Source: Desulfobacterales bacterium (lineage in GTDB: Bacteria; Desulfobacterota; UBA8473). From it: a stretch of 32,195 nt of DNA. Below, one piece after another: positions 13,218-31,791 of the stretch. Below the pieces are notes generated by a model. That model saw only the letters and a program-made list of their open reading frames with translations, was not told the origin of the DNA and ran no database searches. Within the stretch, counting starts at the first letter, position 1. The number at the start of each line of letters is the position of its first letter. The DNA is taken from contig JACQWO010000054.1 of assembly GCA_016209225.1 (NCBI GenBank), positions 1 to 32,195 on the forward strand, written 5' to 3'. The translations under genes and the position numbers were made by a program.

Positions 13218-13305
13218 AGACAATTATCCTCTGAATCTCATTGGTTCCGTCGGCGATCTGAGCCCCTTTGGCATCTCTCATCAATCGATACGGGCCATCC
13301 TTACC
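13214..13305 (-). pseudogene. C-terminal fragment of an acyl-CoA dehydrogenase
   Basis: On the minus strand this reads DGPYRLMRDAKGAQIADG followed by TNEIQRIIVS, the standard C-terminal segment of acyl-CoA dehydrogenases (RDAK...GTNEIQR). Nothing upstream continues the domain. It is not a duplicate of the intact gene at 8939-10087, which ends in AGTNEIMK. It is a remnant. Confidence 0.65.
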
Positions 13306-13349
13306 CACTCAAAAGCAATATCTTACCAACCTGGTTGTAGGCGGATTGA

Positions 13350-13565
13350 AATTACAAAATTCAATTTGACAAAGGTTCGTCTAAGAAACTGCTTCCCATT
13401 GAAATCAAATCGGGAGAAACCGTAAACATGTCCTTTTTCGACGGCCTCCGTTATTTCATTGCTCTGGACGTACCCGCCGCTGAGACAGGCATCCTGATCC
13501 ATTAGGGAGATGGCTTGTATCAGCGTGCAAACTTATCGGTTATTCCCTGGCTTCAGGTATCATAA
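13350..13565 (+). pseudogene. C-terminal fragment of a DUF4143-type AAA ATPase
   Basis: The open frame reads QFDKGSSKKLLPIEIKSG, ETVNMSFFDGLRYFIAL and, after an in-frame TAG at 13503-13505, GDGLYQRANLSVIPW before a TAA at 13563-13565. The PIEIKSG core and the closing VIPW match the C-terminal nuclease-like domain of the ATPase family with DUF4143. The N-terminal ATPase domain is absent. Family assignment is by recognition. Confidence 0.6.
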
Positions 13566-13569
13566 TGCT

Positions 13570-13710
13570 GACAGGAAAATCTACTTTGTGGCTGAAGCAA
13601 AGGCTTCTCTGTAGGGCGACGACTTACTAAGGAAGGAAGAGATTAAGGATCACCCGGTTTTTGCGTACCTGCGAAAACTCTCTTTCTTACCGGAGCCGAT
13701 AATTCTCTAA
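13570..13710 (+). pseudogene. Possible C-terminal fragment of a type III restriction subunit
   Basis: The frame reads DRKIYFVAEAKASL, then a TAG at 13612-13614, then GDDLLRKEEIKDH to a TAA at 13708-13710. The (K)IYFVAE(T/A)K word followed by LR-EE-IK resembles the end of type III restriction (Res) subunits. It is short and broken, so the family call is tentative. From 13711 to 13974 I see no gene, only a near-perfect inverted repeat (GTTAACCGAACGGTAAC at 13748-13764). Confidence 0.35.
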
Positions 13711-13974
13711 CCGTGATAAGGATGCTACATTTCAAACGGCATTCAATGTTAACCGAACGGTAACATCCGAGAATATGGGCATGAAAACTAACGAACGGTA
13801 TTCTTGTCGACTAAAATAGAATGTTGACAATGCTCAATAATTATGCAACATTGCCACTGACAATCATATAAAAAAACAGAATTCGAACGTGCACAAAGAA
13901 AATGTACGTTCCGAAACCTCAATTTCTTAGGGTGAACCGAAAGCGGCAAGCAGGTGACCCCATGGGAGGACAAT

Positions 13975-14217
13975 ATGACCATTATGGTGAACGGCATTAT
14001 AGAAAAAGGTTCCATTCGCCTTCCCGACAATCTTCCTTTGCCCGACGGTACACGGGTAATCGTAAGGATTGATCCTGAGAGGCTGACGGAAGAAAAACGC
14101 CAAGTCATCGATGAATTATCGGGGGCATGGTCTGATGATCCCAGCATCGTTGATGTTTTTCAAGAGATTGAAGAACAACGGCATAGTTATCTGGGGAGAC
14201 AAGTGAATTTCTCATGA
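13975..14217 (+). CDS. Antitoxin (VapB/AbrB- or DUF104-like)
   Basis: An 80-residue protein whose N-terminal half (VNGIIEKGSIRLPDNLPLP, then DGTRVIVRID) has the beta-rich swapped-hairpin pattern of small antitoxins that pair with PIN toxins. The acidic C-terminal half would wrap the toxin. The ATG at 13975 follows GGGAGGA; the frame opens at 13954. Its TGA overlaps the ATG of a vapC start (ATGA at 14214-14217), the classic coupled antitoxin-toxin arrangement. The toxin is truncated, so the antitoxin is probably an orphan relic. Confidence 0.75.
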   Translation: MTIMVNGIIEKGSIRLPDNLPLPDGTRVIVRIDPERLTEEKRQVIDELSGAWSDDPSIVDVFQEIEEQRHSYLGRQVNFS

Positions 14218-14267
14218 TTCATTTGGATACCAATATTGTAATCGCCTTTATGAATGGTAACAAATAA
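14214..14267 (+). pseudogene. VapC PIN-domain toxin, truncated to 17 codons
   Basis: The start reads MIHLDTNIVIAFMNGNK and then stops at a TAA (14265-14267). LDTNIVIAF contains the first catalytic Asp of PIN ribonucleases. The remaining three acidic residues and the rest of the roughly 130-residue domain are missing, and none was found at the far end of the island. The break marks the left border of the accessory block. Confidence 0.75.
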
Positions 14268-14325
14268 TGTCAGCAGTTAAATCGATGACATAAACCCATC
14301 CTGATCCGGCCGTGAGAAGGTTTTA

Positions 14326-17300
14326 ATGTCTGTTCTTGAACGCAAGCAGACTGTGTTGAAGCTGCTGGAGCAACTGCGGGGCGTGGATGCCCTGAAAGAA
14401 TTGTTCTGGACAGAGCTGAATTACGAGCGCGAAAACAAGCCGCTCAGCATGCGCGGCTGGCCGGATTCCGCCAGAAACGCGCTGCTCGATGATCCTATCC
14501 TGTTTGCCGGCGGCGGCGAAGATCATACGTTTCATGTGGTGTATTGCCGCCTGGCCTCAGAAAACCTTCAGAGAAATCTTGAGCGGCCCATAGTTGATCA
14601 GTTGATACGCGAACATCCTTACTGCCTGTTTGTTTTCTCCGACACAACTCAATCCGCCTGGCATTTTCTGAACATCAGGTATGACGAGAAGGCTGAGAAG
14701 CGGCGGCTGTTCCGCCGGATTACCGTGCGAGCCGGCGGCGGTTTGCGCACAGCCGCCGAGCGACTGCAGATGCTTGATCTTACATCGTTCGGGAAAGAGC
14801 TGTCCGGCATCTCTGCGCTGGAGATTCAAAAACGCCACGACGACGCTTTCGATGTTGAGTCGGTCACCAAGGCGTTCTACAAGGAACTCGCCAACTGGTA
14901 TTTCTGGGCGCTGAAGCATGTTCACTTTCCCAAGGATGCGCCCAAGGAGGCTGACGGACACGACCACATCGGTGTGATCCGCATGATCACGCGGCTGATC
15001 TTCTGTTGGTTCGTGAAGGAAAAAGGACTGATTCCCGAAACACTGTTCAATCAGCGCCGACTAAATGAACTGCTCGATGGGTTCGCGCCGGACAATAACG
15101 CCGGGGAAGATTCCGTTTTCTACAAAGCGATCCTGCAAAACCTGTTCTTCGCCACGCTGAATACGGAGATGGACAAGCGCGGCTGGGCGCGGGATGAGCA
15201 GAACTTCATGGCACACAGTCTTTACCGCCATCGCGATTTGTTCAAGAAGCCCGGCGAGGCGCTGGCGCTGTTCAAAAACATCCCGTTCCTCAACGGCGGT
15301 CTGTTTGAGTGTCTGGACAAGGATTTGGGCGAAGGCGCCAGGCCGCGTTACGTGCGCATTGACGGATTCTCCCGACGGCCGGACAGCCAGCCGGTCGTCC
15401 CTGATTTCCTGTTCTTCGGACCTGAGCGCGAGGAAGACCTCAGTGCGGACTATGGCAACAAGAAATTCAGGAATGTCAGGGTGCGCGGGCTCATCCACAC
15501 CCTTCACCGATACCACTTCACGATTGAGGAAAACACGCCCATTGAACAGGAAGTCGCCCTTGATCCGGAGCTCTCCGGCAAGGTGTTCGAAAACCTGCTT
15601 GCCGCCTATAATCCCGAAACCGGCGCCACGGCTCGTAAACAGACCGGCTCGTTCTACACCCCGCGCGAGATCGTGGATTACATGGTGGACGAGGCGTTGA
15701 TCGCATTCCTGAAGGGGAGTTTTTCCACAGAGAATGCAGAGGACACGGAGAAGAGACTCAGGCGGCTGGTGTCGTGGGAGGAGACCGGCCACGATTTTGA
15801 CAACCAGGAAACCGAAGCGCTGATCGCCGCGATTGACGGCCTGAAGGCGCTGGACCCGGCCGTGGGCTCTGGCGCGTTTCCGATGGGCATCTTGCACAAG
15901 CTGGTGTTCATCCTGGGGAAACTCGATCCGGGCAATGAGCAGTGGGAGCAACGGCAAATTCAACGCGTACGCGACGCCATTGCCACAGTAGAAAAGATCG
16001 AAGACTCCGCCATCCGCGAGCGGACGGCCAGGGAACTTGAACAGCAGATCGTCGGCATCGAGGAGGCCTTTAATCGCAATGAACTGGATTACGGTCGCAA
16101 GCTCTACCTGATCGAAAACTGCCTTTACGGAGTGGACATCCAGTCCATCGCCGTCCAGATCGCCAAGATGCGGTTCTTCATCTCGCTGATCGTTGACCAG
16201 CGGGTGGACCCAGATGCAACAAACCTCGGCGTGCGCCCGTTGCCCAACCTGGAAACCAAATTCGTCGCCGCTAACACGCTGATAGGTATTGAAAAGCCCA
16301 AACAGATGACGTTCCGCAACCCGGATATTGACGCCAAGGAAACGGAACTGCGCAAAGTGCGGGAGAAGCACTTCAATGCCAGGACCCTGGCCAGTAAAGC
16401 CAAGTGCCGGGAACTGGACAAAAAACTCCGTGCCGAAATCGCGGAACTGCTCAAGCACGATGGCTGGGGTGACATCACGGCAAAACGACTCGCCGCCTGG
16501 GATCCTTACGATCAGAACGCCTCCGCTCCTTTCTTCGATCCTGAATGGATGTTTGGCATACGGGACGGATTCGACGTGGTCATCGGGAACCCGCCGTATG
16601 TTTTTGCGCGGAATAGTGCCGCAAAAGGCTTAACAAATGCAGATAAACGCTATTTCTACGAACACTATGAGTTGGCTGAATACCAAGTTAATCTCTACCC
16701 ATTATTCATCGAGAAAGCGAGTGGTTTACTGCGTGTTACCGGTTGTCTTTCGTTCATCACCCCGAATAACTGGCTGACGATTAATACGAACCGCTCTGTG
16801 CGGAAATTTGTTCTGCAGAAATCTGATATTACTCTGGTTAATTTTTACGCTCGCGTCTTTGAAACCGCTGATGTAGACAGTGCCATTGTCGTTTTCACAA
16901 ACGCCAGTTGTCGCCAGATAGTGAGTCTCTGTGAGTTCACGGACAGCCTTCATCTCATTAAGCGGATGAATTGTGATTTCTTCCTGAAGCAGAAAGATCA
17001 TGTTATCAACATCGAGGCGTTCAAATCTGGAGGGATAGCAGAGTCGCTCGCACAAATTGAAGAACGATCAGAACGCCTTGGGGATCTTGCCGACGTGAAG
17101 GTTGGCTTGGGCGCATATGGGATAGGGCGCGGCAAACCACCTCAAACCAAAGACATGATTGAAAAAAGAGTTTACCACGCCAACCATAGGGCATCGCCTC
17201 AATACTACAAGTATATCGACGGACGAGACGTTTGCAGATACTGGATCGGTTGGTCCGGAGAGTATCTGAAGTATGGTGAACACCTCCGTGAGCCGAGAAA

Positions 17301-17748
17301 CGACTTTCATCTCTTTTCAACAAAGCGAATCCTTGTCCGGCAGATTCCTTCGAAACCACCGTATTGCATCAATGCTGGACTGGCCGAAGAGACATTCCTG
17401 AACGATCGGAATTCAATGAATATCATTAACATGCGGGAATCGCCCGAGCTACTGCTCGGTATTATCAACTCCCGATTGCTGTCGTTCTGGTTCGTGCACA
17501 AATTTGGCAAGTTGCAGCGCGGGACATTCCCGCAGTTCAAGGTAAACGAGTTGGCCTCCTTTCCCATTGCTATAAATCGCATAATGCACAAAGAGAAGAT
17601 CGTTTCTCTCGTCACCCGCATCCTCGGCGCCAAGGCGGCGGACCCGGCGGCGGACACCTCGGCGCTGGAGGGTGAGATTGACCGGATGGTGTACGAACTT
17701 TACGGTCTAACTGAAGAAGATATTGCGATTATCGAGGGGAGAGAATGA
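14326..17748 (+). CDS. Eco57I-like N6-adenine DNA methyltransferase (type IIG/PglX-like)
   Basis: A protein of 1140 residues. The N-terminal 400 residues form a helical region with an all-beta segment (YCLFVFSD, WHFLNIRYDE) and no clear PD-(D/E)XK triad. The methyltransferase core has motif X (GSFYTPREI, about 441), motif I (DPAVGSGAF, D510) and motif IV (NPPY, N755). This is the order of gamma-class adenine methylases in type IIG, BREX PglX and DISARM DrmMI proteins. The region after NPPY should be the target recognition domain; its base composition is visibly lower in G+C. The C-terminus (MVYELYGLTEEDIAIIEG) is the usual end of such enzymes. GAGAAGG precedes the ATG. It would mark host DNA for the helicase-nuclease downstream. 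Confidence 0.9.
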   Translation: MSVLERKQTVLKLLEQLRGVDALKELFWTELNYERENKPLSMRGWPDSARNALLDDPILFAGGGEDHTFHVVYCRLASENLQRNLERPIVDQLIREHPYCLFVFSDTTQSAWHFLNIRYDEKAEKRRLFRRITVRAGGGLRTAAERLQMLDLTSFGKELSGISALEIQKRHDDAFDVESVTKAFYKELANWYFWALKHVHFPKDAPKEADGHDHIGVIRMITRLIFCWFVKEKGLIPETLFNQRRLNELLDGFAPDNNAGEDSVFYKAILQNLFFATLNTEMDKRGWARDEQNFMAHSLYRHRDLFKKPGEALALFKNIPFLNGGLFECLDKDLGEGARPRYVRIDGFSRRPDSQPVVPDFLFFGPEREEDLSADYGNKKFRNVRVRGLIHTLHRYHFTIEENTPIEQEVALDPELSGKVFENLLAAYNPETGATARKQTGSFYTPREIVDYMVDEALIAFLKGSFSTENAEDTEKRLRRLVSWEETGHDFDNQETEALIAAIDGLKALDPAVGSGAFPMGILHKLVFILGKLDPGNEQWEQRQIQRVRDAIATVEKIEDSAIRERTARELEQQIVGIEEAFNRNELDYGRKLYLIENCLYGVDIQSIAVQIAKMRFFISLIVDQRVDPDATNLGVRPLPNLETKFVAANTLIGIEKPKQMTFRNPDIDAKETELRKVREKHFNARTLASKAKCRELDKKLRAEIAELLKHDGWGDITAKRLAAWDPYDQNASAPFFDPEWMFGIRDGFDVVIGNPPYVFARNSAAKGLTNADKRYFYEHYELAEYQVNLYPLFIEKASGLLRVTGCLSFITPNNWLTINTNRSVRKFVLQKSDITLVNFYARVFETADVDSAIVVFTNASCRQIVSLCEFTDSLHLIKRMNCDFFLKQKDHVINIEAFKSGGIAESLAQIEERSERLGDLADVKVGLGAYGIGRGKPPQTKDMIEKRVYHANHRASPQYYKYIDGRDVCRYWIGWSGEYLKYGEHLREPRNDFHLFSTKRILVRQIPSKPPYCINAGLAEETFLNDRNSMNIINMRESPELLLGIINSRLLSFWFVHKFGKLQRGTFPQFKVNELASFPIAINRIMHKEKIVSLVTRILGAKAADPAADTSALEGEIDRMVYELYGLTEEDIAIIEGRE

Positions 17749-18050
17749 AATTTTATAAATATGGCTGATCCGGTTCTTGCGTACTTGTCTCAGATGTCTT
17801 TGCTGTAACGCACAATTGACACAATTTCACAAATATGCAAGATTACAATTGTTATTCATCGCAATTAACGAAGGGTTGTACCTTCCGTTCTCTTCCGATA
17901 GGGAGATTTTATAAATGGGCTGTAAATATCTTTTAATAGTCGGACGACTTATCGGCTGATTAATTGTTGGAATGTTAGATCTGACATCTATAAGACCTGT
18001 CCAAAGTCTCTTTTCACAACCGATTGCTTTGAGCTTAAAAAAGACATTAA
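17749..18050. other. Spacer between methylase and STAND gene with aborted starts
   Basis: About 300 bp without a gene. The methylase stop overlaps an ATG (ATGA at 17745) whose frame ends after 7 codons, and an ATG at 17761 opens only 15 codons (MADPVLAYLSQMSLL). Either could be the start of a lost gene. A weak inverted repeat (AACGAAGG/CCTTCCGTT) lies near 17868-17890. No convincing promoter or terminator was placed. Confidence 0.4.
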
Positions 18051-21000
18051 ATGGCAAAGAATTCCAGATCCACTGATAGTATAAGAGCATCCCACGACGG
18101 GCATGAGTTCCACGAGGCGTGGACAGCGCGTAAAGCCCTGCAACTCTTACATCCAACCGACAATCTTGTCGGAATTGCCGTTGAAGGGCTCTCCCCTCCT
18201 GATCAGGCAGAGGCTGCATCTGAAACCGTCGAAATTGCCGATACTACTCTATACTACGGCAACAGCCCGAAGTTCGAAAAGGCGTATAGGGTTAGTATCG
18301 TTCAGTTCAAATACTCTGTCGGTAGCAGTGATGATTACTTTCGTGCTAGTCACGCCAAGAAGACAGTAGCCAAGTTCGCGGCAGCCTATCTTGATTATAA
18401 GAAACGGTACCGTGCGAACGATGTTCGAGAGAAGCTCAAGTTCGAACTAATCACAAATAGACCTATCTACCCTGCTTTTCAGCAAGCGATTGCAAGCATT
18501 GCGGAGCGAAAGCCTTTATCCGGCGATGTCAAGAAGCAGGCGGAGCAATTCAAAACGGCTTGTGGTCTAGATGGCAAAACCTTAGTTGAATTTGCCGGTA
18601 AGTGCCTGATCACGGGTTTGGCTGGAAGTCTCACCGATACCAAAAGAGACCTGTCGAGAATCCTGGTTGATTGGTCCGCCACATCTGATCCCATGGCCCG
18701 AGCACGCCTAGGCGCAATGAGGGAGATGGTGCGCAAAAAGGTGGGTTATGCCGGAATGAACAGAAATGTCATAAAACACGTAGATGTCCTAGCTGCTCTG
18801 GACGTATCGGACGTAAACGAACTCTTACCTTGTCCTGCCAGTCTTCCCGAAGTCGGAAAGGTCGTTGAGCGCGAACAGCTTGCAGAGGCGATTAAGCTTG
18901 TTCCCAAGCTTGAAAGACCCCTCCTAATTCATGCGGCTGGTGGCGTAGGAAAGACCGTGTTTCTTGAAAGCCTCTCGCAGTCGCTCTCGGACAAGCATGA
19001 GGTTCTGCTCTTTGATTGCTTCGGTGGTGGGGCTTATCGCGCACCGGAGGATTCAAGACACCTCCCGAAGCGTGGTCTGGTTCACATCGTAAACACACTT
19101 GCGTGCCGTAGCCTTTGTGATCCCCTACTACCCGGCAATGACAACGTGGAATCCCTGTTCGAAACCTTTCGGCGCAGGCTCAAACAGTGCGTTAAGACAC
19201 TCTCGACAGCTTCCGCGGAGAGGGAGCTTATACTGTTCATTGATGCAATAGACAACGCGGCGAAGCATGCTGATGACATGAATCAACCACCGTTTCCAAC
19301 GCTTCTCTTAAAGAGCTTTCATCACGGCGGCTCAATTCCCGGCGTAAAACTTGTTGTTTCATGTCGCTCACATCGGATTGACATATTTGCAAAGGATGTT
19401 CCCTACCACGACTTCAAATTGGAGCCGTTTAGTCTCACTGAGACAGAAGCCTATGTGCGGGACCGCCTTCCAAACGTAACCCAGACAGAAATACAGGTCG
19501 CTCAGGCGAGATCAGGCGGCAACGCCCGCATTCTGGAGCATCTTGTTACCAGTGACAGAGGGTTACTCGACAAATCCGAGATTGACAACATCATCGAACT
19601 TGATGATCTGTTAAATGACCGGATTCAGAAAGCTCTCTTGGAGGCAATCGCACGTGGTTATAACAAAGCAGAAATAGGTGCTTTTCTCGCGGGATTGTCC
19701 GTATTGCCTCCTCCGGTGCCGCTTGATGAATATGCAGGCGCTCACGGGATGGATATCAGTGCCATCGAGAGTTTCGCGGCGGACTTGGCACCTTTGCTGG
19801 AGCGGACAAAGTATGGCCTGATGTTTAGGGATGAGCTGACAGAAACTCTGATTCGAGAAAAATACGGGTCTGATGATGACGCATTGCGACGTGTTGCAGG
19901 AAACCTTCTGAATCGACAAGACACATCCGTCTATGCCGCTCGCGCACTGCCTGGCCTGTTGCAAAAGCTTAATGACGGAAAGCAATTGTTCGAGCTCGCT
20001 TTCGACGAGAGATTCCCTGAATCAATTACGAGCACAGTCGGAAAACGAAACATTCGCTATGCCCGGCTAAAGGCGGCAGTGCTTCACGAATCGAACAATC
20101 ATGATCACAACCGATTAGTTCATCTTTTGGTGGAACTCTCAACAATCGCAGCGAGTGATCAAAGAGGTGCTAACTATATTCTGGATTATCCTGATCTCGT
20201 GATAGCAGCGCAGGATGTGGATGCGACAAGGCGTCTCTTCGAGACCCGCACAACCTGGCCAGGAACAAGACACGCTAGGCTTGCAATAGCAAATGCTTTG
20301 TCGGGTGATATCGATGATGCATATAGGCATGCAGTCAGCGCAGATGAATGGATTGTTCACTACCGACAGCAGGACCGTAAGCAAGGCATGGACCGCTCTG
20401 GTCCTGAACGGCTTGACGTCGCGGCAATTCCCTTTTGCCTCATCACCCAGAGCCGTGCCGAGAATGCGATTGGCTTTATGCGAGAATGGAAGGACTGGTA
20501 CGCATACGAAGTCGGTGGGCATCTATTTAGTCTGTTAGATCAAGTGGCAATATCCCAGTCCGGGTGCGATAAAACTGGATTTTTAAGTAAAGCAACAGAT
20601 GACATTGGAGTCATCGCTTCTGCCTTGTCGTTCCTCGAGTTGGATGACACCCAGCGGAGCCAACTAATCAAGCGGCTATCAAAGGCCTGCGAGAAGGAAA
20701 AGAAGCTGGAAACAAATGATAACTTTCATCGGGAAGCGAATTATCGTCTTCAGGATGGTCTAATAAAGGCATCAGTTATTGCCGCCTCAATGGGTCTCAG
20801 CACAGAGGCGTTAACGATTTCCAGTCGTGCACCGCACGCGAGACCGAATGTATGGGCCTTTAGCGATCATTTTTCTGATCAGCATATCCTTCCGTTTTTG
20901 GTATACACGGCGTTACATGCAGCAGTTAAAGGAAAGGAACTCCGCGAACGAGACATCCTCCCAAATGAACTGTACGCAATCTGTTCCAAATGGAGGTGTA

Positions 21001-24000
21001 CTGGTAGTGGTGTTGAGTTTAAAAGGAAACTGAAGAAGTGCCTGGAAGGCTTTGTCCGGTCCAAGCAAGACCAATCAAAGGAAGATAAGAAATCCATCAG
21101 CTACGAACTAAAACGTGATGCCGAAAGTTTTATTGATACTCGGATAGAGCCCTTACTTAAGTTAGCCAAGGCATTCGCCGCCCTGACAGGCGCGTCCATC
21201 AAGAAAGGTGACCAAGCGTTTCTGGCTCTACTGGAAGCGTGGGCAGAGACGAGACGAAAGCGTGATCTGTACAGTATCCAGAAATTCAATCGCTTCTTTC
21301 AATCGCTGGGGTGCCAACTCGCTGTCTTTGCGCTTTGGGCTCGCACCGATCTAACAGTAGCGTCCGTTAAAGCATTTCTAGAGCGATTGCACGAACAAGA
21401 GATACTCGGCGCTTCGACCTTAATCGAAGTAGTGGCTATCCTCGCAAAGAGAAGCCACCTGCACGCACTTGCAGGCGAACAGGCCTTGAAAGCCAACTCT
21501 TTGATCGAAAAGGAGTACGACGTCAGCTCAAGAGCCACCCTTTATGCGCAACTTGCGAGGGCAATTTTACCGGCTAGTAGAGATGAGGCTGCAACATACT
21601 TCAAAGCAGGTCTAGAACAGATGGATGCCATCGGTTCCGGCGACTATCAATTTACGAACGAACTTCTGTTATTCGCTTCGTCTCTAAGAGGAGAGGAACT
21701 CGCCGAGCAGAATTTTCATACGCTCACAAACATATGTGAGCTCAACATGCCTGACGAAGAAGAAAAATTTCCCTGGTTCGCGTTTGCGAAGGGTCTGTCA
21801 AGGACCTCGGGCTGCAAGGCTCTCGCAAAACTGGCTCGCTGGGATGATCGATCGAGGGTTTCTCTCAACTGCACGCTGCTTCCTTATCTCATAGCGCTCA
21901 TTGATGACGGCAAAATTGCACCTGAAGATGCATTGGCATTACTGAGGCTATCGAATCCTGTTGAATTTTGGAGTTGTAACACAGAGACATTTGCCAAGGC
22001 TCTTGACGACCAGAGTTACCAAAATCAAGAGATATTGATAAGCGAATTGATCCAGCAATTCGAGGACAACAACCCCGGCTTAGCAATGGATAGCATCATA
22101 GAAACGCTGGCATCTATCGCAGAAAGAACGTTTGGTAAGGCATCGGAGACCACCGTTTATCTTTCTGCTGCATGTGTGCATTTTGCCAAAGTTCGTGCCG
22201 AGCGCAATGAGCACACGAATTATCACGGAAGATCAGACCCTCGGTTGGCTAAGAAAGTGATCAGTACGGACATGCAGAACCGAGCCATGCTCAGAAAACT
22301 GGCTACCAGAACCAAGCCAAATGATGAAGTCTCCTTGGGAAAGGCGATAGATGAGCTAAATAAAATGCAGCACATCTATGATCTTAAAGGAGAATTTTTC
22401 GTAAAGCTGCGTTCAAAAGTTCTGTTCTCAGATAGACCTCAGTACATAAAGACAATCTCCCGACTTGAGAATCTCTCAATATACACGAAATTGCACGAAC
22501 TGGAGACGTGTAAAGGCGAGTGGGGGAAATCGTCGGCAGCGTTGGCATCAATCTACGAGTCGCTTGGAGTGCCGATATTGCAGCTTCATGCGGATGATTT
22601 TGTATGTTTCGATCAGCTGTCGGGGCACAAACTAAAAGAGTTATCCGATCTTTCGGGAGTCCCTATTACAACACTGGCAATGGAACTTATCAATGTTTTC
22701 TCGTCGCCAGCTTCCCATACCGCGGCCTCCGTATGGTTAGGTCTTGCTTCCTTTATTTGCGATAAAGCTGATGATGGGGAGGGGCAATCAGCGCTGAAAA
22801 GATTGTTAAACAGCAATGCCGCCAAACTGGCTTCCAATGTTCCTGATGGGGAATGGAAAGATGGACTCTATCCAACTAATGACATAACAGAAATAGCTTC
22901 GGGATTAGTATGGCGAATGCTTGGCTCTCCTCAAGCCTCCGACAGATGGCGAGCTGCACATAGCGTAAGGTGTTTTGCGAAATTCGAAAGATGGAAGGTC
23001 ATAGATGCGCTGGTTGCGAGGTTCCCAACAAGAGACGCTCATCCCTTCCAGGCTCCCGAATTGACTTTCTACTACATGCATGCACGGCTTTGGCTTCTGA
23101 TAGCCTTGGCCAGAATTGCGATGGACTATCCTCAAAACATCGCCCGTTATCACAAAATCCTCATGGAGATCGTTCTGGACGAGGAATCACCACACGTTCT
23201 CATGAGACACTTCGCCGCACAGACAATTTTGGTGTGCATTGCTGCTGGAAACTTAAAGCTTTCATCCGTAAAGGAAAAGCAGATTAGAACTATTAATCTC
23301 TCACCATTTCCGAGATTAAGAAAAAAGTTAAAAAAAGGCAGTCATAACTCCTTCTATCAGGGTAGACCAAAGGACGTGCTGGAACCAAAAACGGAATTCC
23401 ATTTGGATTATGACTTCGACAAATATGATGTTCATGGCCTTAGTGATGTTTTCGGAAGACCGGGTTGGGAAGTTAGAGACTTAATATCCGAAGAAGTCCA
23501 CAGTTTCGATCCAAATGTAAAAAGCATGTATGAGACAGGCGGTCGTGAAGTAAGCCGCAGGCATCGTTCGGGCGGAATGACTTCGCTGTATCACTCTTAT
23601 GGCCAGCAGCTTGGATGGCACGCGCTGTTCCCAGTGGCTGGCCGACTACTGCGGCAGTACCATGTAACAGACGATTGGTACTACGATGATCCTTGGACAG
23701 AGTGGCTGAATAGGAGTTTACTTACCAGAAATGACGGCTTTTGGCTGTCGGACGGTATTGACAGGCCATCCCTCGATGTAAAAGTCAATCTGCTTGAAGA
23801 AGGCGAGAAAGGCCTCATCATAACTGGTTCCAAACGCATATTATTGAATTTAGTTGGTATCGGTTCTGGTCAAGGCAAAGGGATCGTTGTCAACGGAAAC
23901 TGGAATTCACCCGATAATATCGATATCCACATTAGTTCTGCTTTAGTTTCATCAAGAATGTCTAAGACTTTGGCAAATGAGCTTATCCAAGAGGAACCCT

Positions 24001-24518
24001 TTTTCGTCTGGCTTCCAACTTACAGAGAGGATGAAACAGAGTACCTTAATAACAATAAGAAAGACTATGTTCCTTGGGTTGTCTGTTCCTACTCTGAAGG
24101 AAGACTTGATGAAAATGATCCTCTTGCCTCGAATAGCGCTATTCATCGTCCTCACTTTTCAGAGAACATTACCAAAATCTTCTCGCTCAAATCTGATGAT
24201 CCATTTAGGCGAGTTTGGAAAAATTCTTCTGGAAAGACTATGGCGTCCGCAGAAGCGTGGGGCTGTGAGAACAAATTTGAAGACGAAACATCCTGCTCGG
24301 GCGTCCGTTTTGTATGCTCAGGAGAGCTGCTGAGAGAAGTGTTAGCCACACTAGACACGGATCTCCTACTGCTCGTTAAACTGCGAAGATACGAAGAAGG
24401 AAGGGGTATTACGGACAGTAAGTTTTCTCACACGATAGCTGTAGTCTGCATAAAGCAAAACCTGGATTTTGAGTTCTATAAGGGTGCTGTCAATAAGCTT
24501 CATCAAGCGAGATCTTAA
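18051..24518 (+). CDS. Giant STAND NTPase with N-terminal PD-(D/E)XK-like nuclease (Avs-like)
   Basis: One open frame of 2155 residues. Residues 12-130 look like a Cap4/Mrr-type nuclease: E22 and E45, D64 in EIADTTLYYG, and the QFK motif (Q85, K87). A STAND/NACHT-type ATPase follows, with Walker A HAAGGVGKT (about 295-303), Walker B ILFIDAIDN (about 394-402) and a sensor-like VVSCRSHR. From about 500 to 1750 the protein is mostly helical, compatible with TPR-like sensing repeats. The last 400 residues form a distinct Trp/Gly-rich domain (YGQQLGWHALFPVAGRLL, DPWTEWLNRSLLTR, DGFWLSDGIDRP). Nuclease, STAND and a long repeat sensor is the plan of Avs antiphage proteins; I cannot assign a numbered type. 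No good ribosome binding site precedes the ATG. There are no stops across 6.5 kb, so it is under selection or recent. Confidence 0.85.
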   Translation: MAKNSRSTDSIRASHDGHEFHEAWTARKALQLLHPTDNLVGIAVEGLSPPDQAEAASETVEIADTTLYYGNSPKFEKAYRVSIVQFKYSVGSSDDYFRASHAKKTVAKFAAAYLDYKKRYRANDVREKLKFELITNRPIYPAFQQAIASIAERKPLSGDVKKQAEQFKTACGLDGKTLVEFAGKCLITGLAGSLTDTKRDLSRILVDWSATSDPMARARLGAMREMVRKKVGYAGMNRNVIKHVDVLAALDVSDVNELLPCPASLPEVGKVVEREQLAEAIKLVPKLERPLLIHAAGGVGKTVFLESLSQSLSDKHEVLLFDCFGGGAYRAPEDSRHLPKRGLVHIVNTLACRSLCDPLLPGNDNVESLFETFRRRLKQCVKTLSTASAERELILFIDAIDNAAKHADDMNQPPFPTLLLKSFHHGGSIPGVKLVVSCRSHRIDIFAKDVPYHDFKLEPFSLTETEAYVRDRLPNVTQTEIQVAQARSGGNARILEHLVTSDRGLLDKSEIDNIIELDDLLNDRIQKALLEAIARGYNKAEIGAFLAGLSVLPPPVPLDEYAGAHGMDISAIESFAADLAPLLERTKYGLMFRDELTETLIREKYGSDDDALRRVAGNLLNRQDTSVYAARALPGLLQKLNDGKQLFELAFDERFPESITSTVGKRNIRYARLKAAVLHESNNHDHNRLVHLLVELSTIAASDQRGANYILDYPDLVIAAQDVDATRRLFETRTTWPGTRHARLAIANALSGDIDDAYRHAVSADEWIVHYRQQDRKQGMDRSGPERLDVAAIPFCLITQSRAENAIGFMREWKDWYAYEVGGHLFSLLDQVAISQSGCDKTGFLSKATDDIGVIASALSFLELDDTQRSQLIKRLSKACEKEKKLETNDNFHREANYRLQDGLIKASVIAASMGLSTEALTISSRAPHARPNVWAFSDHFSDQHILPFLVYTALHAAVKGKELRERDILPNELYAICSKWRCTGSGVEFKRKLKKCLEGFVRSKQDQSKEDKKSISYELKRDAESFIDTRIEPLLKLAKAFAALTGASIKKGDQAFLALLEAWAETRRKRDLYSIQKFNRFFQSLGCQLAVFALWARTDLTVASVKAFLERLHEQEILGASTLIEVVAILAKRSHLHALAGEQALKANSLIEKEYDVSSRATLYAQLARAILPASRDEAATYFKAGLEQMDAIGSGDYQFTNELLLFASSLRGEELAEQNFHTLTNICELNMPDEEEKFPWFAFAKGLSRTSGCKALAKLARWDDRSRVSLNCTLLPYLIALIDDGKIAPEDALALLRLSNPVEFWSCNTETFAKALDDQSYQNQEILISELIQQFEDNNPGLAMDSIIETLASIAERTFGKASETTVYLSAACVHFAKVRAERNEHTNYHGRSDPRLAKKVISTDMQNRAMLRKLATRTKPNDEVSLGKAIDELNKMQHIYDLKGEFFVKLRSKVLFSDRPQYIKTISRLENLSIYTKLHELETCKGEWGKSSAALASIYESLGVPILQLHADDFVCFDQLSGHKLKELSDLSGVPITTLAMELINVFSSPASHTAASVWLGLASFICDKADDGEGQSALKRLLNSNAAKLASNVPDGEWKDGLYPTNDITEIASGLVWRMLGSPQASDRWRAAHSVRCFAKFERWKVIDALVARFPTRDAHPFQAPELTFYYMHARLWLLIALARIAMDYPQNIARYHKILMEIVLDEESPHVLMRHFAAQTILVCIAAGNLKLSSVKEKQIRTINLSPFPRLRKKLKKGSHNSFYQGRPKDVLEPKTEFHLDYDFDKYDVHGLSDVFGRPGWEVRDLISEEVHSFDPNVKSMYETGGREVSRRHRSGGMTSLYHSYGQQLGWHALFPVAGRLLRQYHVTDDWYYDDPWTEWLNRSLLTRNDGFWLSDGIDRPSLDVKVNLLEEGEKGLIITGSKRILLNLVGIGSGQGKGIVVNGNWNSPDNIDIHISSALVSSRMSKTLANELIQEEPFFVWLPTYREDETEYLNNNKKDYVPWVVCSYSEGRLDENDPLASNSAIHRPHFSENITKIFSLKSDDPFRRVWKNSSGKTMASAEAWGCENKFEDETSCSGVRFVCSGELLREVLATLDTDLLLLVKLRRYEEGRGITDSKFSHTIAVVCIKQNLDFEFYKGAVNKLHQARS

Positions 24519-24776
24519 ATGTACCCACTTTGCAAGTTATAGGATAGGTATATTGCAGGAAGTCATTATGAAAAGAGATGAACCATACAGATAGGCTCGG
24601 GCCGCTAAGTTTTATGTTACTATCTTTCAATCAGTAATGCTCAATTTAGAAGAAACCCCACTACTGAATAGTTGTAGGTGCAAATCCGGCAGCCTGAAGC
24701 CGTATTACCTTTTCAAATCAGAAAGTACGCAAGAACCGGATGAACCTCTAAAAACATCTTTCAATGGCAGGTGTCC
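24519..24776. other. Intergenic spacer, possible untranslated RNA signals
   Basis: About 260 bp with no gene. The stretch near 24670-24710 (GTAGGTGCAAATCCGGCAGC, then CTGAAGCCGTATTACC) has the look of structured RNA, but it matches no RNA family I can name. It may be the leader of the radical SAM gene. Confidence 0.3.
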
Positions 24777-25910
24777 ATGATGATAGGGCATGGGAATAAC
24801 GCGGTTCGTGAACAGCAGGCGGCGTATGCGGCGGTAGGTATGTTGCAGGATCATGCTCTGGTCCGGGAATTGTGGGCTATCGAGGGACAATCGGATCCGT
24901 TCCATGTTCAGCGAATAGCCGAAAGGTCGGGACTGCCGGTTAAATGGCTTTCCGCACTACCTAAGATCAATGGTGAGCGGGGCATGGATAAGCTCATGGA
25001 GGAGCGGAATGTCCTGTTGCTTCGCGACCGCAAGAGCCCGTTCATCGAACAGTTTCAACATCCGCTGGGACGGTGCGCGAAGTTCTATAAGCTGACGGCT
25101 TACAACAACTGCAATTTCTGGTGCGAGTACTGTTATCTGTACCTGACGTTTCGAGCTTGTCCGGTGTCAACGCACTTTGTGAATTACGACAGGATGTTTA
25201 AGGACATAGAGAAGTTTGACAGGCAAGATGTTCACGATGCCCTTCGCGTTTTGAATCTTGGCGAACTTGGCGATCCGTTGGCCGTAGATGATGTCACCGG
25301 ATTATCGGAGCAACTTGTTCCGTTTATGCCTGCACATGCGCCCCATACGAAGCTGCTGTTCCTGACCAAGAGCGACTGCGTAAAAAATCTCCTGGAGATT
25401 GAACATGGCGGACAGACGATCGTTTCGTTCAGCGTCAACACAGACATGGTATGGCAGCATCTGGAGCACCGGACGCCGTCACCGGCGGACCGGTTGAAAG
25501 CGGCACACAAGGTTAAGGATGCCGGGTACGAGATACGTTTGCGAATCGATCCGGTCGTCCGATATTCAACATGGGGAAAAGATTATCGCAGGCTTACGGA
25601 GATGATTTTCGATCACGTCGAGCCTTCGAGGATAACGATTGGCGAGTATCGACCCGCAGAAGGACTCTCAAGCCACATCAAAACACGCTTTCCGGAATCA
25701 CCCCTACTGAAGGTCAATGGTTCGCTGATTGTCGAGGCGGGAAAGCTGCGCTATCCGAGGGAATGCAGGATTGAAATGTTCCGCACAATTGCAGGCGGGA
25801 TTCGCCGTTGCAACAGTAAGGTTCAGATTGCGCTTTGCAAGGAGATGCCGCAGGTCTGGAAGGCCGTTGGTTTAGAGGGGAAAGGACTGTATTGTAACTG
25901 TACCGACTGA
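24777..25910 (+). CDS. Spore photoproduct lyase-like radical SAM protein
   Basis: A 377-residue radical SAM enzyme. The cluster motif CNFWCEYC gives C112, C116 and C119 for the [4Fe-4S]/SAM site. NLGELGDPLAVDDVTGLS, KLLFLTKSD, TIVSFSVNTD, YEIRLRIDPVVRY and the C-terminal ALCKEMPQVWKAVGL plus CNC are all marks of the SPL family. Y118 and Y120 flank the third Cys, as in spore photoproduct lyase, but the Cys that quenches the radical there (C141 in Bacillus) aligns with Gly/Glu of the NLGELGD motif. True thymine-dimer repair is therefore doubtful. Starts at GTG 24771, ATG 24777 and ATG 24780 are all in frame; AGG just upstream favours an ATG. It sits between nuclease genes, so a nucleic acid substrate is plausible, but this is unproven. 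Confidence 0.88.
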   Translation: MMIGHGNNAVREQQAAYAAVGMLQDHALVRELWAIEGQSDPFHVQRIAERSGLPVKWLSALPKINGERGMDKLMEERNVLLLRDRKSPFIEQFQHPLGRCAKFYKLTAYNNCNFWCEYCYLYLTFRACPVSTHFVNYDRMFKDIEKFDRQDVHDALRVLNLGELGDPLAVDDVTGLSEQLVPFMPAHAPHTKLLFLTKSDCVKNLLEIEHGGQTIVSFSVNTDMVWQHLEHRTPSPADRLKAAHKVKDAGYEIRLRIDPVVRYSTWGKDYRRLTEMIFDHVEPSRITIGEYRPAEGLSSHIKTRFPESPLLKVNGSLIVEAGKLRYPRECRIEMFRTIAGGIRRCNSKVQIALCKEMPQVWKAVGLEGKGLYCNCTD

Positions 25911-26033
25911 CGGGTTGTGGAATTACAGTAGAAATATCTTGTATTGATCGACAAATTATTCAATAATACTGATCGAGGACAATCATCATGGTTGAGAGAA
26001 TTTGTATATGAAGCGGGCAGCGGAGGTGCTTCG

Positions 26034-26279
26034 ATGGTTAACGAATCTGTCGTAAAAGGCGTTAGATATTGCAACTATGACGAGGTTTTTGACGATATTC
26101 CTTCGACCTTTACCATCAAAGAGACGTCAGAGTATCTGGAAGTCGCTGAAATAACAATACGAAGATGGGTGAAAGAGGGAAAGCTGCCCTATGACAGGGT
26201 GGGCAAGAACTATGTTTTTCATGTAGGTGATTTGAGGGAAATAAAACGTAAGATATCTCTCAAATCCATAAAGGGATAG
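26034..26279 (+). CDS. Small excisionase/MerR-type helix-turn-helix protein
   Basis: An 81-residue DNA-binding protein. The HTH_17-type domain is FTIKETSEYLEVAEITIRRW followed by VKEGKLPYDRVGKNYVFHVGDL, with the wing in RVGKNYVFH. The ATG at 26034 has GGAGGTG about 7 bases upstream; the frame is open from 25944 without support. Its TAG is 3 bp from the ATG of the helicase gene, so the two are almost certainly co-translated. It may work as a control protein for the operon or as a DNA-binding specificity subunit of the helicase. The excisionase-like fold alone does not imply a phage origin. Confidence 0.8.
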   Translation: MVNESVVKGVRYCNYDEVFDDIPSTFTIKETSEYLEVAEITIRRWVKEGKLPYDRVGKNYVFHVGDLREIKRKISLKSIKG

Positions 26280-26282
26280 TCT

Positions 26283-29200
26283 ATGCCTGCCCATGACATC
26301 ATAGACAACCGTCGTGAAAAACTGGTGGATCACATCAACCGGATTCTCGATTCCAGCGATGCGGCGCGCTTTGCCGTAGGTTATTTTTTCCTGTCCGGCC
26401 TGACGGCTATTTCCGAAAAACTCTCCCGTGTCAAGGAATTGCGGCTCCTCATCGGTAATACGACCAACCGGGAAACCCTGGAACAGTTGGCCGAAGGCTA
26501 TCATCGTCTGGAAATGGTCGTCGAGGCCGCCGAGGCGGAGCGCTACCCGAAGCGGAGCGACATCAGGCAGATGTCCACGGAGACAACAGGGAGCATCCGG
26601 GCCGGTATGGAACTGATGGACCAGACCGATGAAGGGGAAACTCTGGTCAAATCCCTCGTGCAGATGATTGAGGAAAAACGCCTCAGGGTGCGGGTTTATA
26701 CACGGGGGCGTCTCCATGCGAAGGCCTATATCTTCGATTACGGCACGGTTTACGATCGGAACGGTAACTCCGTAGACCGCCACGAAGAAGGAATTGCCGT
26801 TGTCGGCTCATCCAACCTGACCCTCTCCGGCGTCACTCACAACACGGAACTCAATGTCATTGTTCAGGGCAACGACAACCATGCCGAGCTTGTCCGGTGG
26901 TTTGAAGACCTCTGGAAGGAAGCCCAGGATTTCGATGAAAGCCTGATGCAGGAAATGAAGGCATCCTGGGCAATCGCACCTGTCCGGCCCTATGACGTTT
27001 ATATGAAGACCCTCTATGCCTTGGTCAGAGACCGGATCGAAGGCGGCGAGGATCAGGATATCCTCTGGGATGATGAGATCACCCGGAGGCTGGCCGATTT
27101 CCAGAAAGTTGCCGTGAAGCAGGCCGTTCAGATCATACGGGACTTCGGGGGCGCCTTTGTCTCCGATGTGGTGGGTCTCGGGAAATCCTATATCGGCGCC
27201 GCCATTGTCAAACACTTCGAACGAGTGGAACACGCCCGCCCCCTGATTATCTGTCCCGCCACGCTGGTCGAGATGTGGGAGCGTTATAATGAGGTGTATC
27301 AACTCAATGCCCGGGTACTGTCTATGGGATACCTCAGGGAGCGGGATGACCGGCCTGCGCAGTTTCTGAAAGAAGACGTTATCTATCGGGATCGAAACTT
27401 TCTGCTTGTCGATGAAAGCCACAATTTCCGTTATGCGGACACACAGCGTTACAAGATGGTGGAGGCCTTCCTGGAAACGGGGAAGAAGTGCTGCTTCATC
27501 ACCGCCACTCCCCGTAATAAAAGCGCCTGGGACATCTATTATCAAATGAAGCTCTTCCACCAGGATGACAGGACGGATCTGCCCATCGATCCGCCGAATC
27601 TGAAAGAATATTTCCGCATGATTGAAAAAGGGGAAAAGAATCTTCCTGATCTCTTGTCGAACCTGCTGATCCGCCGGACACGAAATCACATCCTGCGGTG
27701 GTACGGTTTTGATTCCGAAACCCACCGGCAGATTGATCCCTCCCGGTTCAGAGATTATCAGGACGGCCGCCGCCGGGCCTACGTCATGGTGGGAGGGCGT
27801 CACCAGTTCTTCCCAAAACGGGAACTGGAAACGGTTGAATACAGCATCGAAGAAACGTATCAGGGTCTCTATCATGAACTGCGAGAGCATCTGGGAAAGG
27901 CACGCAAAGGACAACCGGTCAAACCTCCTCCAAATGAACTGACCTATGCCCGGTATGGTCTGTGGCATTATGTCATGAAGGAGAAGCAAAAAAAGGAGCC
28001 TTATACCAGTCTCCACCGGGCCGGATCCAACTTGCGCGGCCTGATTAGGGTTCTGCTCTTCAAGCGGTTTGAATCGAGCGTTTATGCCTTCCGGGAAACG
28101 GTTCGACGTTTGCTGGCTGTTCACGGATATTTCTTAGAAGCCCTCTCACAGGGGATCGTTCCTGCCGGGGAAGATGCTCAGGCCATTCTGTACGAACCGA
28201 ATCAGGACGAAGAACAGGATTTAATGGACGCCCTGAGGCAGGTTTCCGGAAAATACAACGTCGCTGATTTTGACATGCCAAGACTGAAGGAACACATCGC
28301 CCACGATATCCGATTGCTGGAAAGGATGCTGGAACTCATCGAGCCCGTCACGCCGGACCGGGATGCCAAGCTTCAGACCCTGATCGGAAGACTTTCCGAA
28401 AAGCCGCTCCAGGACGGCAAGAAGCTGATTTTTACCCAGTACGCGGATACGGCCCGCTACCTGTTTGACAACCTGAACCCACGTAGCGAGCGACAGGATA
28501 TTGATGTAATCTTCAGCGGAGACAAGAGCAAGGCCAGGGTTGTAGGCCGTTTCGCGCCAAAGGCAAACCCGGAATACCGCTTCACCACCGGGGAGCAGGA
28601 GTTGATGATGGTCATTGCCACGGACGTTTTGGCCGAAGGGTTGAACCTTCAGGACTGCGACAAGGTCATCAACTATGACCTGCACTGGAATCCGGTCCGA
28701 TTGATTCAACGGTTTGGCCGCATTGACCGGATAGGCTCCGAGCACGATGTGGTGTATGGATTTAACTTTCTTCCCGAAACAGGAATTGACAAGCATCTCG
28801 GTCTTCGTCAGAAACTCCACAATCGTATCCAGGAAATCCATGATACCATCGGGGAAGATTCGGCTATCCTCGACCGCTCTGAACAGCTTAACGAGGAAGC
28901 TATGTACGCGATTTACGAAAAGAAGGGCGGCCAGCTTTCCCTGTTCGAGGATGAGGAAGAGGATTTTCTGGATATCAATGAGGCGGAGGAACTCCTCCGG
29001 CAATTGCGTCGTGACAACCCTGCGGAATATGACCGTATCGCCGATCTGCGGAACGGCATCCGCACCGTGAAACCATCGGCAACAAAAGGGCTTTATGTGT
29101 TCTGTCAGGCCGGTCGATATCAGCAGCTGTTTCTATTGAACGAAAAGGGGGAAATTGTCTCCAGAGACATCCCGCGTATCCTCGGAGTTATCAAATGTGG

Positions 29201-29618
29201 ACCTGAACTTGAGGCACTCGGTTTTCCGTCCGGATATAATGAAGCCGTCATGCGGGTCAAGCGCCGGTTTGCAGAGACGGTCAAACAACGACAATCGGAA
29301 TTGGAACATACCCTGTCACTATCCCAGGGACAGCGTTATGCACTGCGGGAATTGCGAGTAATGTTCGGACTGAGCGCTGATGACGATGCGAAAGTTCAGA
29401 TCAACATACTTGAAAAGGCTTTTCGCATGCCGATGACGTCGGCTATCAATAAGGAACTCAACCGCATCCGCCGGAACGGAATGATGGGAGAAAATCTAAT
29501 GCGGGTGTTGACAGACCTCTATCATCAACACGGTATGCGCGATTGGTCAGACCGACGAAACCGGAAATCCGAAGACCAAACCATACCGAAGATCGTCTGT
29601 AGCGAAGGCTTAATCTAA
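26283..29618 (+). CDS. PLD nuclease-SNF2 family helicase fusion
   Basis: An 1111-residue protein. The N-terminal PLD domain has one HKD motif (H145, K147, D152 in LHAKAYIFD) followed by GSSN (175-178), so two chains would be needed for a full active site. The superfamily 2 (SNF2) helicase follows: motif I SDVVGLGKS (about 294-302), II DESHNFR, III FITATPRN, then TDVLAEGLNLQDCDKVIN and motif VI QRFGRIDRIG (about 808-818). The C-terminal 250 residues are helical and of unknown role. Such proteins occur next to Eco57I-like methylases in defence islands; DISARM keeps comparable functions on separate proteins (DrmC PLD, DrmD SNF2). It would track on and cut unmodified DNA. AAAGGGA lies before the ATG. 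Confidence 0.9.
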   Translation: MPAHDIIDNRREKLVDHINRILDSSDAARFAVGYFFLSGLTAISEKLSRVKELRLLIGNTTNRETLEQLAEGYHRLEMVVEAAEAERYPKRSDIRQMSTETTGSIRAGMELMDQTDEGETLVKSLVQMIEEKRLRVRVYTRGRLHAKAYIFDYGTVYDRNGNSVDRHEEGIAVVGSSNLTLSGVTHNTELNVIVQGNDNHAELVRWFEDLWKEAQDFDESLMQEMKASWAIAPVRPYDVYMKTLYALVRDRIEGGEDQDILWDDEITRRLADFQKVAVKQAVQIIRDFGGAFVSDVVGLGKSYIGAAIVKHFERVEHARPLIICPATLVEMWERYNEVYQLNARVLSMGYLRERDDRPAQFLKEDVIYRDRNFLLVDESHNFRYADTQRYKMVEAFLETGKKCCFITATPRNKSAWDIYYQMKLFHQDDRTDLPIDPPNLKEYFRMIEKGEKNLPDLLSNLLIRRTRNHILRWYGFDSETHRQIDPSRFRDYQDGRRRAYVMVGGRHQFFPKRELETVEYSIEETYQGLYHELREHLGKARKGQPVKPPPNELTYARYGLWHYVMKEKQKKEPYTSLHRAGSNLRGLIRVLLFKRFESSVYAFRETVRRLLAVHGYFLEALSQGIVPAGEDAQAILYEPNQDEEQDLMDALRQVSGKYNVADFDMPRLKEHIAHDIRLLERMLELIEPVTPDRDAKLQTLIGRLSEKPLQDGKKLIFTQYADTARYLFDNLNPRSERQDIDVIFSGDKSKARVVGRFAPKANPEYRFTTGEQELMMVIATDVLAEGLNLQDCDKVINYDLHWNPVRLIQRFGRIDRIGSEHDVVYGFNFLPETGIDKHLGLRQKLHNRIQEIHDTIGEDSAILDRSEQLNEEAMYAIYEKKGGQLSLFEDEEEDFLDINEAEELLRQLRRDNPAEYDRIADLRNGIRTVKPSATKGLYVFCQAGRYQQLFLLNEKGEIVSRDIPRILGVIKCGPELEALGFPSGYNEAVMRVKRRFAETVKQRQSELEHTLSLSQGQRYALRELRVMFGLSADDDAKVQINILEKAFRMPMTSAINKELNRIRRNGMMGENLMRVLTDLYHQHGMRDWSDRRNRKSEDQTIPKIVCSEGLI

Positions 29619-29710
29619 ATAATGGATCATCTCCAAATTAGTTGATCGATGATAAGGATTAGAGGGGTCCAGGATTCAAGGATTCGAGTGAAATGCTGAA
29701 ATTGAGAGGA
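29619..29710. other. Right border of the island
   Basis: A short spacer with no gene. ATCGATGA occurs at 29645-29652 and also at 14281-14288, flanking the island. An 8-mer reiteration (ATTCAAGG, ATTCGAGT) lies near 29671-29688. No integrase, tRNA or clear attachment site is visible. Confidence 0.35.
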
Positions 29711-31435: not shown

Positions 31436-31711
31436 CTACCATGTATGGGAGATTACATCACGTTTGCACACACTTCGACAATTCGCCTCATTTTTACTGC
31501 ACCCCGGGTTAAAGCCCAGGCATACATAGCTAACCTTGCTCTTTACTTCATCTCTTACCTTTACAACTATATCCCCGTAATCATCCTCGGCAAGTTCCAG
31601 TACATTTTGGGGACAGGCTGGAACACATTCCCCACAGCCGTCACACTTATCAGTATCTATTACAATATAATACTCTCCACTGCCATCTGTATACCCATAG
31701 TTGATTATCAT
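31436..31711 (-). CDS. 4Fe-4S ferredoxin
   Basis: A 91-residue ferredoxin. The first cluster motif is the canonical CDGCGECVPACP. The second Cys group is unusual: CLGFNPGCSKNEANCRSVC, with four Cys spaced 7, 6 and 3 residues apart, which may bind another cluster or metal. GGGAGGA precedes the ATG. It lies between the VWA-protein gene and the small Cys-tailed gene on the same strand. The electron partner is not shown. Confidence 0.85.
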   Translation of the reverse strand: MIINYGYTDGSGEYYIVIDTDKCDGCGECVPACPQNVLELAEDDYGDIVVKVRDEVKSKVSYVCLGFNPGCSKNEANCRSVCKRDVISHTW

Positions 31712-31791
31712 GGCATCCTCCCTTCAGTGATAATCTCTTTGAGAGCTTTGTAAAAGTATTCCTGAGAGCGAACATTGTCAAAAACCGGAAG

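Follow-up and report, generated by a model that had tools for sequence, protein, structure and literature searches.

In known systems, Avs3 acts as a single gene, and the characterised Avs3 proteins are triggered by the large terminase of a phage and act abortively. A backup effector may also be carried within a restriction operon, as is the case for prrC inside the type I hsd operon. Backup effectors are likewise embedded within the core loci of BREX and BREX-related (BR) systems (PMC12839542), and BR type 2 combines an HKD-Swi2/Snf2 helicase with an N6-methyltransferase (N6-MTase) and the DUF499 ATPase, along with DUF3780 (PMC12839542). We analysed a defence locus that has features of each of these arrangements, found in a 32,195-nt stretch of DNA from a Desulfobacterales bacterium, which we call the window. 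Its features are as follows.

13226..29710 (~16.5 kb), no strand assigned: the whole inserted genomic island, between the gene for the POR gamma subunit and cobS
14326..17748, + strand: core gene 1, an Eco57I/TaqI_C (type IIG-like) adenine DNA methylase
17763..17786 (24 nt), + strand: left inverted-repeat arm of the cargo cassette
18051..24518, + strand: the cargo, a divergent Avs3 (Cap4-like nuclease, STAND NTPase, long C-terminal sensor region)
24723..24746 (24 nt), - strand: right inverted-repeat arm of the cargo cassette
24771..25910, + strand: SPL-family radical SAM protein
25944..26279, + strand: second variable slot, a small HTH_17/excisionase-type protein
26283..29618, + strand: core gene 2, an HKD(PLD)-Snf2 helicase, the presumed restriction effector

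The extent of the island was determined from genomes in which the site is empty. In the congener G039 (L157), window positions 13225, where the POR gamma gene ends, and 29711, in cobS, correspond to bases that lie close together (1555 and 1576), and POR adjoins cobS in G212 and G189 as well. Because the end of POR and cobS are contiguous in G039, the ~16.5 kb from 13226 to 29710 is an insertion, that is, a genomic island. Its G+C content is ~0.50, versus ~0.41 outside it in the window. A sequence-only reading of the window had placed a five-gene island at 14281-29652. All five + strand genes are present where it put them, with open reading frames, domain matches, and intact catalytic motifs, but the true insertion is larger and also takes in an antitoxin ORF upstream of the methylase (13954-14217) and a truncated PIN ORF starting at 14216, a vapC-type remnant. 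The same reading overlooked the inverted repeats that flank the STAND gene. Unrelated to the island, the window holds a response-regulator/kinase hybrid at its start (242-1252) and a PAS-rich histidine kinase (1572-3494).

The methylase matched Pfam Eco57I (1.1e-32) and TaqI_C (1.1e-17) and the PADLOC IIG restriction-methylase models (1.6e-61), and its catalytic motifs are intact (DPAVGSG-510 and NPPY-755). The helicase matched Pfam PLDc_2 (1.3e-12) and Helicase_C (1.9e-14), with intact H145/K147/D152, GLGKS, and DESH, and its best PADLOC match was the candidate C3a139 HKD+Snf2 (5.5e-82), a model whose name gives the domain pair of the helicase and which states no partner or mechanism. To the model of the anti-phage PLD helicase, it scored 158 bits against a cut-off of 1100.

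We searched an alignment of this helicase against 84,980 bacterial and archaeal species genomes and kept the best 80 loci, which came from many phyla, with flanks of at most 10 kb per side and many of them shorter. A methylase was present in 58 of the 80, and many of the other 22 lay on short contigs or in sequence ending close to the helicase. STAND, SPL, HTH, TcmP, and SduA genes were found within these flanks in none of the 80 loci, although, with flanks limited to 10 kb, a STAND gene farther away could have escaped detection in some. The conserved unit is a two-gene, putatively restriction-like methylase-helicase pair. Other genes commonly lie between the methylase and the helicase in the loci of the window's helicase clade. 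In distant phyla this interval carries AIPR, TPR, AAA_21, DUF4276, and Schlafen-AlbA_2 (L068), PLDc (L075), DUF3800 (L079), or a nucleotidyltransferase (L065).

Relatives of the helicase were also observed elsewhere. Two further HKD-Snf2 homologues (28-37%) are encoded in the same genome (G000:C87 20809-23553 and G000:C51 16664-18769; L002-L004), which may thus contain several systems of this type. At L044:6536-7192, there is a 218-residue remnant with 73% identity to the N-terminus of the window helicase. It lies downstream of TcmP-SPL and of nucleotidyltransferase/HEPN-like genes, and the PLD helicase of that operon is a different one.

Compared with the described systems, the island resembles BR type 2 in having an N-terminal HKD domain fused to an Snf2 helicase, together with an N6-MTase. 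It differs from it in its Eco57I/TaqI_C-type methylase and in the lack of DUF499; no Pfam match to DUF499 or DUF3780 was found in the five genes. With DISARM, it shares an adenine methylase and an Snf2 helicase, and the DrmMI and DrmD models match weakly. However, its PLD domain is a fused part of the helicase instead of a separate drmC, drmA and drmB are missing, and the weak DrmA and DrmD matches of the helicase reflect the shared helicase domain. Membership in DISARM was thus rejected, as was membership in BREX because pglZ and brxC are missing from the island genes; the absence of all four genes had been correctly noted from the sequence, and they are found nowhere in the window. A relation to "DISARM logic" that had been proposed alongside holds as a general modification-restriction idea only. 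MADS (MAD1-MAD8) was also considered and rejected (HTH protein, 33.6/80 bits for MAD1; methylase, 22/720 for MAD2).

The STAND protein, 2155 residues long, had been called Avs-like, which understated the similarity. It matched NCBIfam Avs3a (1.9e-240), PADLOC Avs3a (1e-209), and SeAvs3 itself (PDB 8dgc; 3.6e-122), the last over residues 11-974, 1124-1309, and 1447-2116. In its length, its domain order, and its homology along almost the whole chain, it is like Avs3 (AVAST type III, SeAvs3), whereas it is only distantly similar in sequence and sits inside a restriction-like operon between inverted repeats. Its nuclease (D64/Q85/K87) and NTPase (GGVGKT-297 and FIDAIDN-396) residues are intact. 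Judged by homology, it is a divergent full-length Avs3 homologue and not an Avs3a equivalog, scoring 801 bits against the NCBIfam equivalog cut-off of 2800, and with a score so far under the cut-off its trigger may differ. No methylase or helicase of this kind adjoins its nearest Avs3 relative in the phylum sample (G072, 32%). No sigma-70 match was found upstream of the gene, which is uninformative as to a promoter.

The same site carries a different cargo in the congener G137 (L040), where the order is POR, methylase, Shedu SduA, TcmP, SPL, RelE-type toxin-antitoxin, helicase, and cobS. The helicase is 97.5% and the SPL protein 92% identical to that of the window, but the Avs3 gene is absent from this operon, with Shedu and TcmP in its place. 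In the second slot, a ParE/RelE toxin pair (L040:9309-9767) lies where the window has the HTH gene (Pfam HTH_17, 2.8e-9), which more probably starts from an ATG at 26034 than from the doubtful TTG. The methylase itself is 92% identical to that of G137 at the DNA level up to window base 16602 and divergent after it, and the similarity to a distant locus (L063, 84%) ends at the very same base, which is the border of the specificity half. This is what an exchange of the C-terminal specificity domain would leave. Behind the G137 methylase (L040:13427-14013), a small gene that resembles DUF2283 by eye precedes a repeated copy of the 3′ end of the methylase gene (a 49-nt direct repeat, 84%), an arrangement that recombination adding a specificity half could have produced.

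The SPL protein matched TIGR04070 (4.9e-37) and has an intact C114-x3-C-x2-C motif. Its subfamily shows 56-92% identity within the genus, clearly apart from housekeeping relatives at 33%, and we used it as a lead to other copies of the locus in the genus. It adjoined this kind of methylase in seven of the nine loci found; no close relative was found on plasmids. Directly upstream of SPL in L040, L042, L044, and L045 lies a TcmP gene (TIGR04474), whose motif YVDAFAGAG is by eye SAM-methylase-like. TcmP is absent from the window and from the rest of its genome, and the window therefore has no TcmP beside a cysteine-rich or radical SAM partner. Because TcmP precedes SPL elsewhere and is missing here, SPL looks like the kept half of a separate TcmP-SPL accessory pair whose partner was displaced by the cassette.

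The cassette is bounded by the two inverted arms, the left one between the methylase and Avs3 genes and the right one between Avs3 and SPL. The window arms share 19 exact bases, versus a maximum of 12 in shuffles (60 per pair of flanks). Arms each orthologous to the left or right arm of the window were found in two congeneric loci, L041 (G108) and L046 (G075), so that three loci have longest exact inverted matches of 19, 17, and 16 nt, while no shuffle gave more than 13 nt. The region around the right arm (24681-24771) is conserved ahead of SPL in L041 and L046. The contents between the arms differ entirely: 6936 nt with Avs3 in the window, 2149 nt with two unknown ORFs in L041, and 3423 nt with sce7726, sce7725, and a RES-domain protein in L046. 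The G108 contig is only 4 kb long, and the chromosomal site lies outside it. L046 (1-5640), which has the same POR side, is a decayed version of the locus, with its methylase reduced to end pieces and a stop and deletions in SPL, and with its sce7726/sce7725/RES cargo still open. No arms were found in G137, so the arms are not required for the slot to vary, and inverted ends around the cargo were likewise absent from the operons L043, L044, L045, L068, and L075 and around the Avs3 gene of G072.

The members of the island belong to known or near-known families; the novelty lies in a cassette slot whose inverted ends are fixed and whose defence cargo is swapped in sister species. Of the two readings that the sequence-only reading offered, a nesting of two systems and a single new system, the first is supported because the STAND gene is absent from the G137 operon and from all 80 helicase loci and is bounded by inverted repeats. 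We consider the locus to be most probably a layered, nested defence island, not one five-gene system (probability of about 0.8). Like prrC in hsd and the backup effectors of BREX and BR loci, it would carry a second, suicidal layer among restriction genes. It differs from them in that its slot has fixed inverted ends and a content that varies among close relatives.

Single arms were found at only two further places, both in G164, a member of the same family. The matching one lies near the ferredoxin gene that follows cobS in the window, and the weaker one near asnS. Their occurrence suggests that the arms are the termini of a small mobile element that is rare. At the start of a contig (L142:1-211; G164:C209), a perfect arm stands beside a hairpin with a 24-nt stem and adjoins a gene syntenic with window 31437-31737, perhaps representing a small repeat element of this family. 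Of a putative complete element of small size in G164, only one arm and the hairpin are visible, as the contig ends there. Two other origins of the arms were rejected: a coding remnant, since translations in all frames gave only short, inconsistent peptides, and the ends of an abundant transposon, since the pattern is rare and confined to the same family and a transposase partner was not found.

The arms might then be leftovers of small transposable elements in an ordinary defence island, in which no slot mechanism operates and unrelated defence genes gathered by chance at a permissive site. Defence genes do cluster in general, and both the lack of a recombinase and the lone arms of G164 fit such an origin. 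However, the arms occupy the same operon position in three congeners around three different cargos, and the core genes keep their order around the cargo, which makes this explanation somewhat unlikely. In another reading, the inverted ends may constitute a dedicated exchange socket in a restriction-modification operon, through which defence modules (Avs3, sce7725/sce7726/RES, and others) are swapped while the operon stays constant. We put this forward tentatively, as an idea with rather less than even odds, perhaps one chance among several.

A once-mobile insertion cassette, inserted three times independently at a hot target after the stop codon of the methylase, is a distinctly improbable origin of the pattern. 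The term "mobile insertion cassettes" is in use (PMC5444012 and PMC6542083), and terminal ends of 19-24 nt around passenger genes with no transposase among the ORFs do fit that idea. No clear target-site duplication was found, and beyond the three loci there are the single arms at the two places in G164. Against this origin, both arm contexts, including ~40 nt inside the right arm, are orthologous across the three genomes, which is better explained by one insertion followed by exchange of the content. Since transposase, recombinase, and clear target duplication were all absent from our searches, we infer the manner of this exchange.

A single multi-layer system with the Avs3 sensor, methylase, helicase, and radical SAM enzyme as partners is barely credible: the five genes do lie closely spaced on one strand over ~15 kb, with the SPL subfamily beside such a methylase in seven of nine loci, but the reading fails because STAND and radical SAM genes are missing from all 80 helicase loci, the STAND gene is missing from the same operon in G137, and Avs3 is self-sufficient in known systems, so that it is refuted as a general system and could survive only as an association in one lineage. 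A tempting false call of a five-gene system is thereby corrected.

In the nested, layered island that we favour, each role is assigned from the homology of the gene concerned. The methylase would mark adenines, with its exchangeable C-terminal specificity domain determining the target site, and the HKD-Snf2 helicase, judging from its families, would translocate on unmarked DNA and cut it. Between these two core genes would lie accessory slots, the first of which is occupied here by an independent Avs3. By homology, Avs3 would sense a phage protein, oligomerise, and degrade DNA through its N-terminal nuclease, aborting the infections that escape restriction. The arms of the first slot resemble the termini of a passenger cassette that lacks a transposase; the contents of this slot were swapped among related species with the ends and core genes left in place, and the TcmP half of the TcmP-SPL pair was probably lost upon arrival of the cassette.

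The locus points to a possible route by which layered immunity is assembled, with a conserved restriction-like pair as the frame and an abortive system in a bounded slot. The slot-borne abortive system would consist of one or a few genes and differ among sister species. If the socket reading is true, exchanging cassettes would let a species replace its second line of defence. Provided that the ends are functional, they would offer a testable route for the turnover of defence genes within a fixed operon, and new defence genes may be found by searching between the arms.
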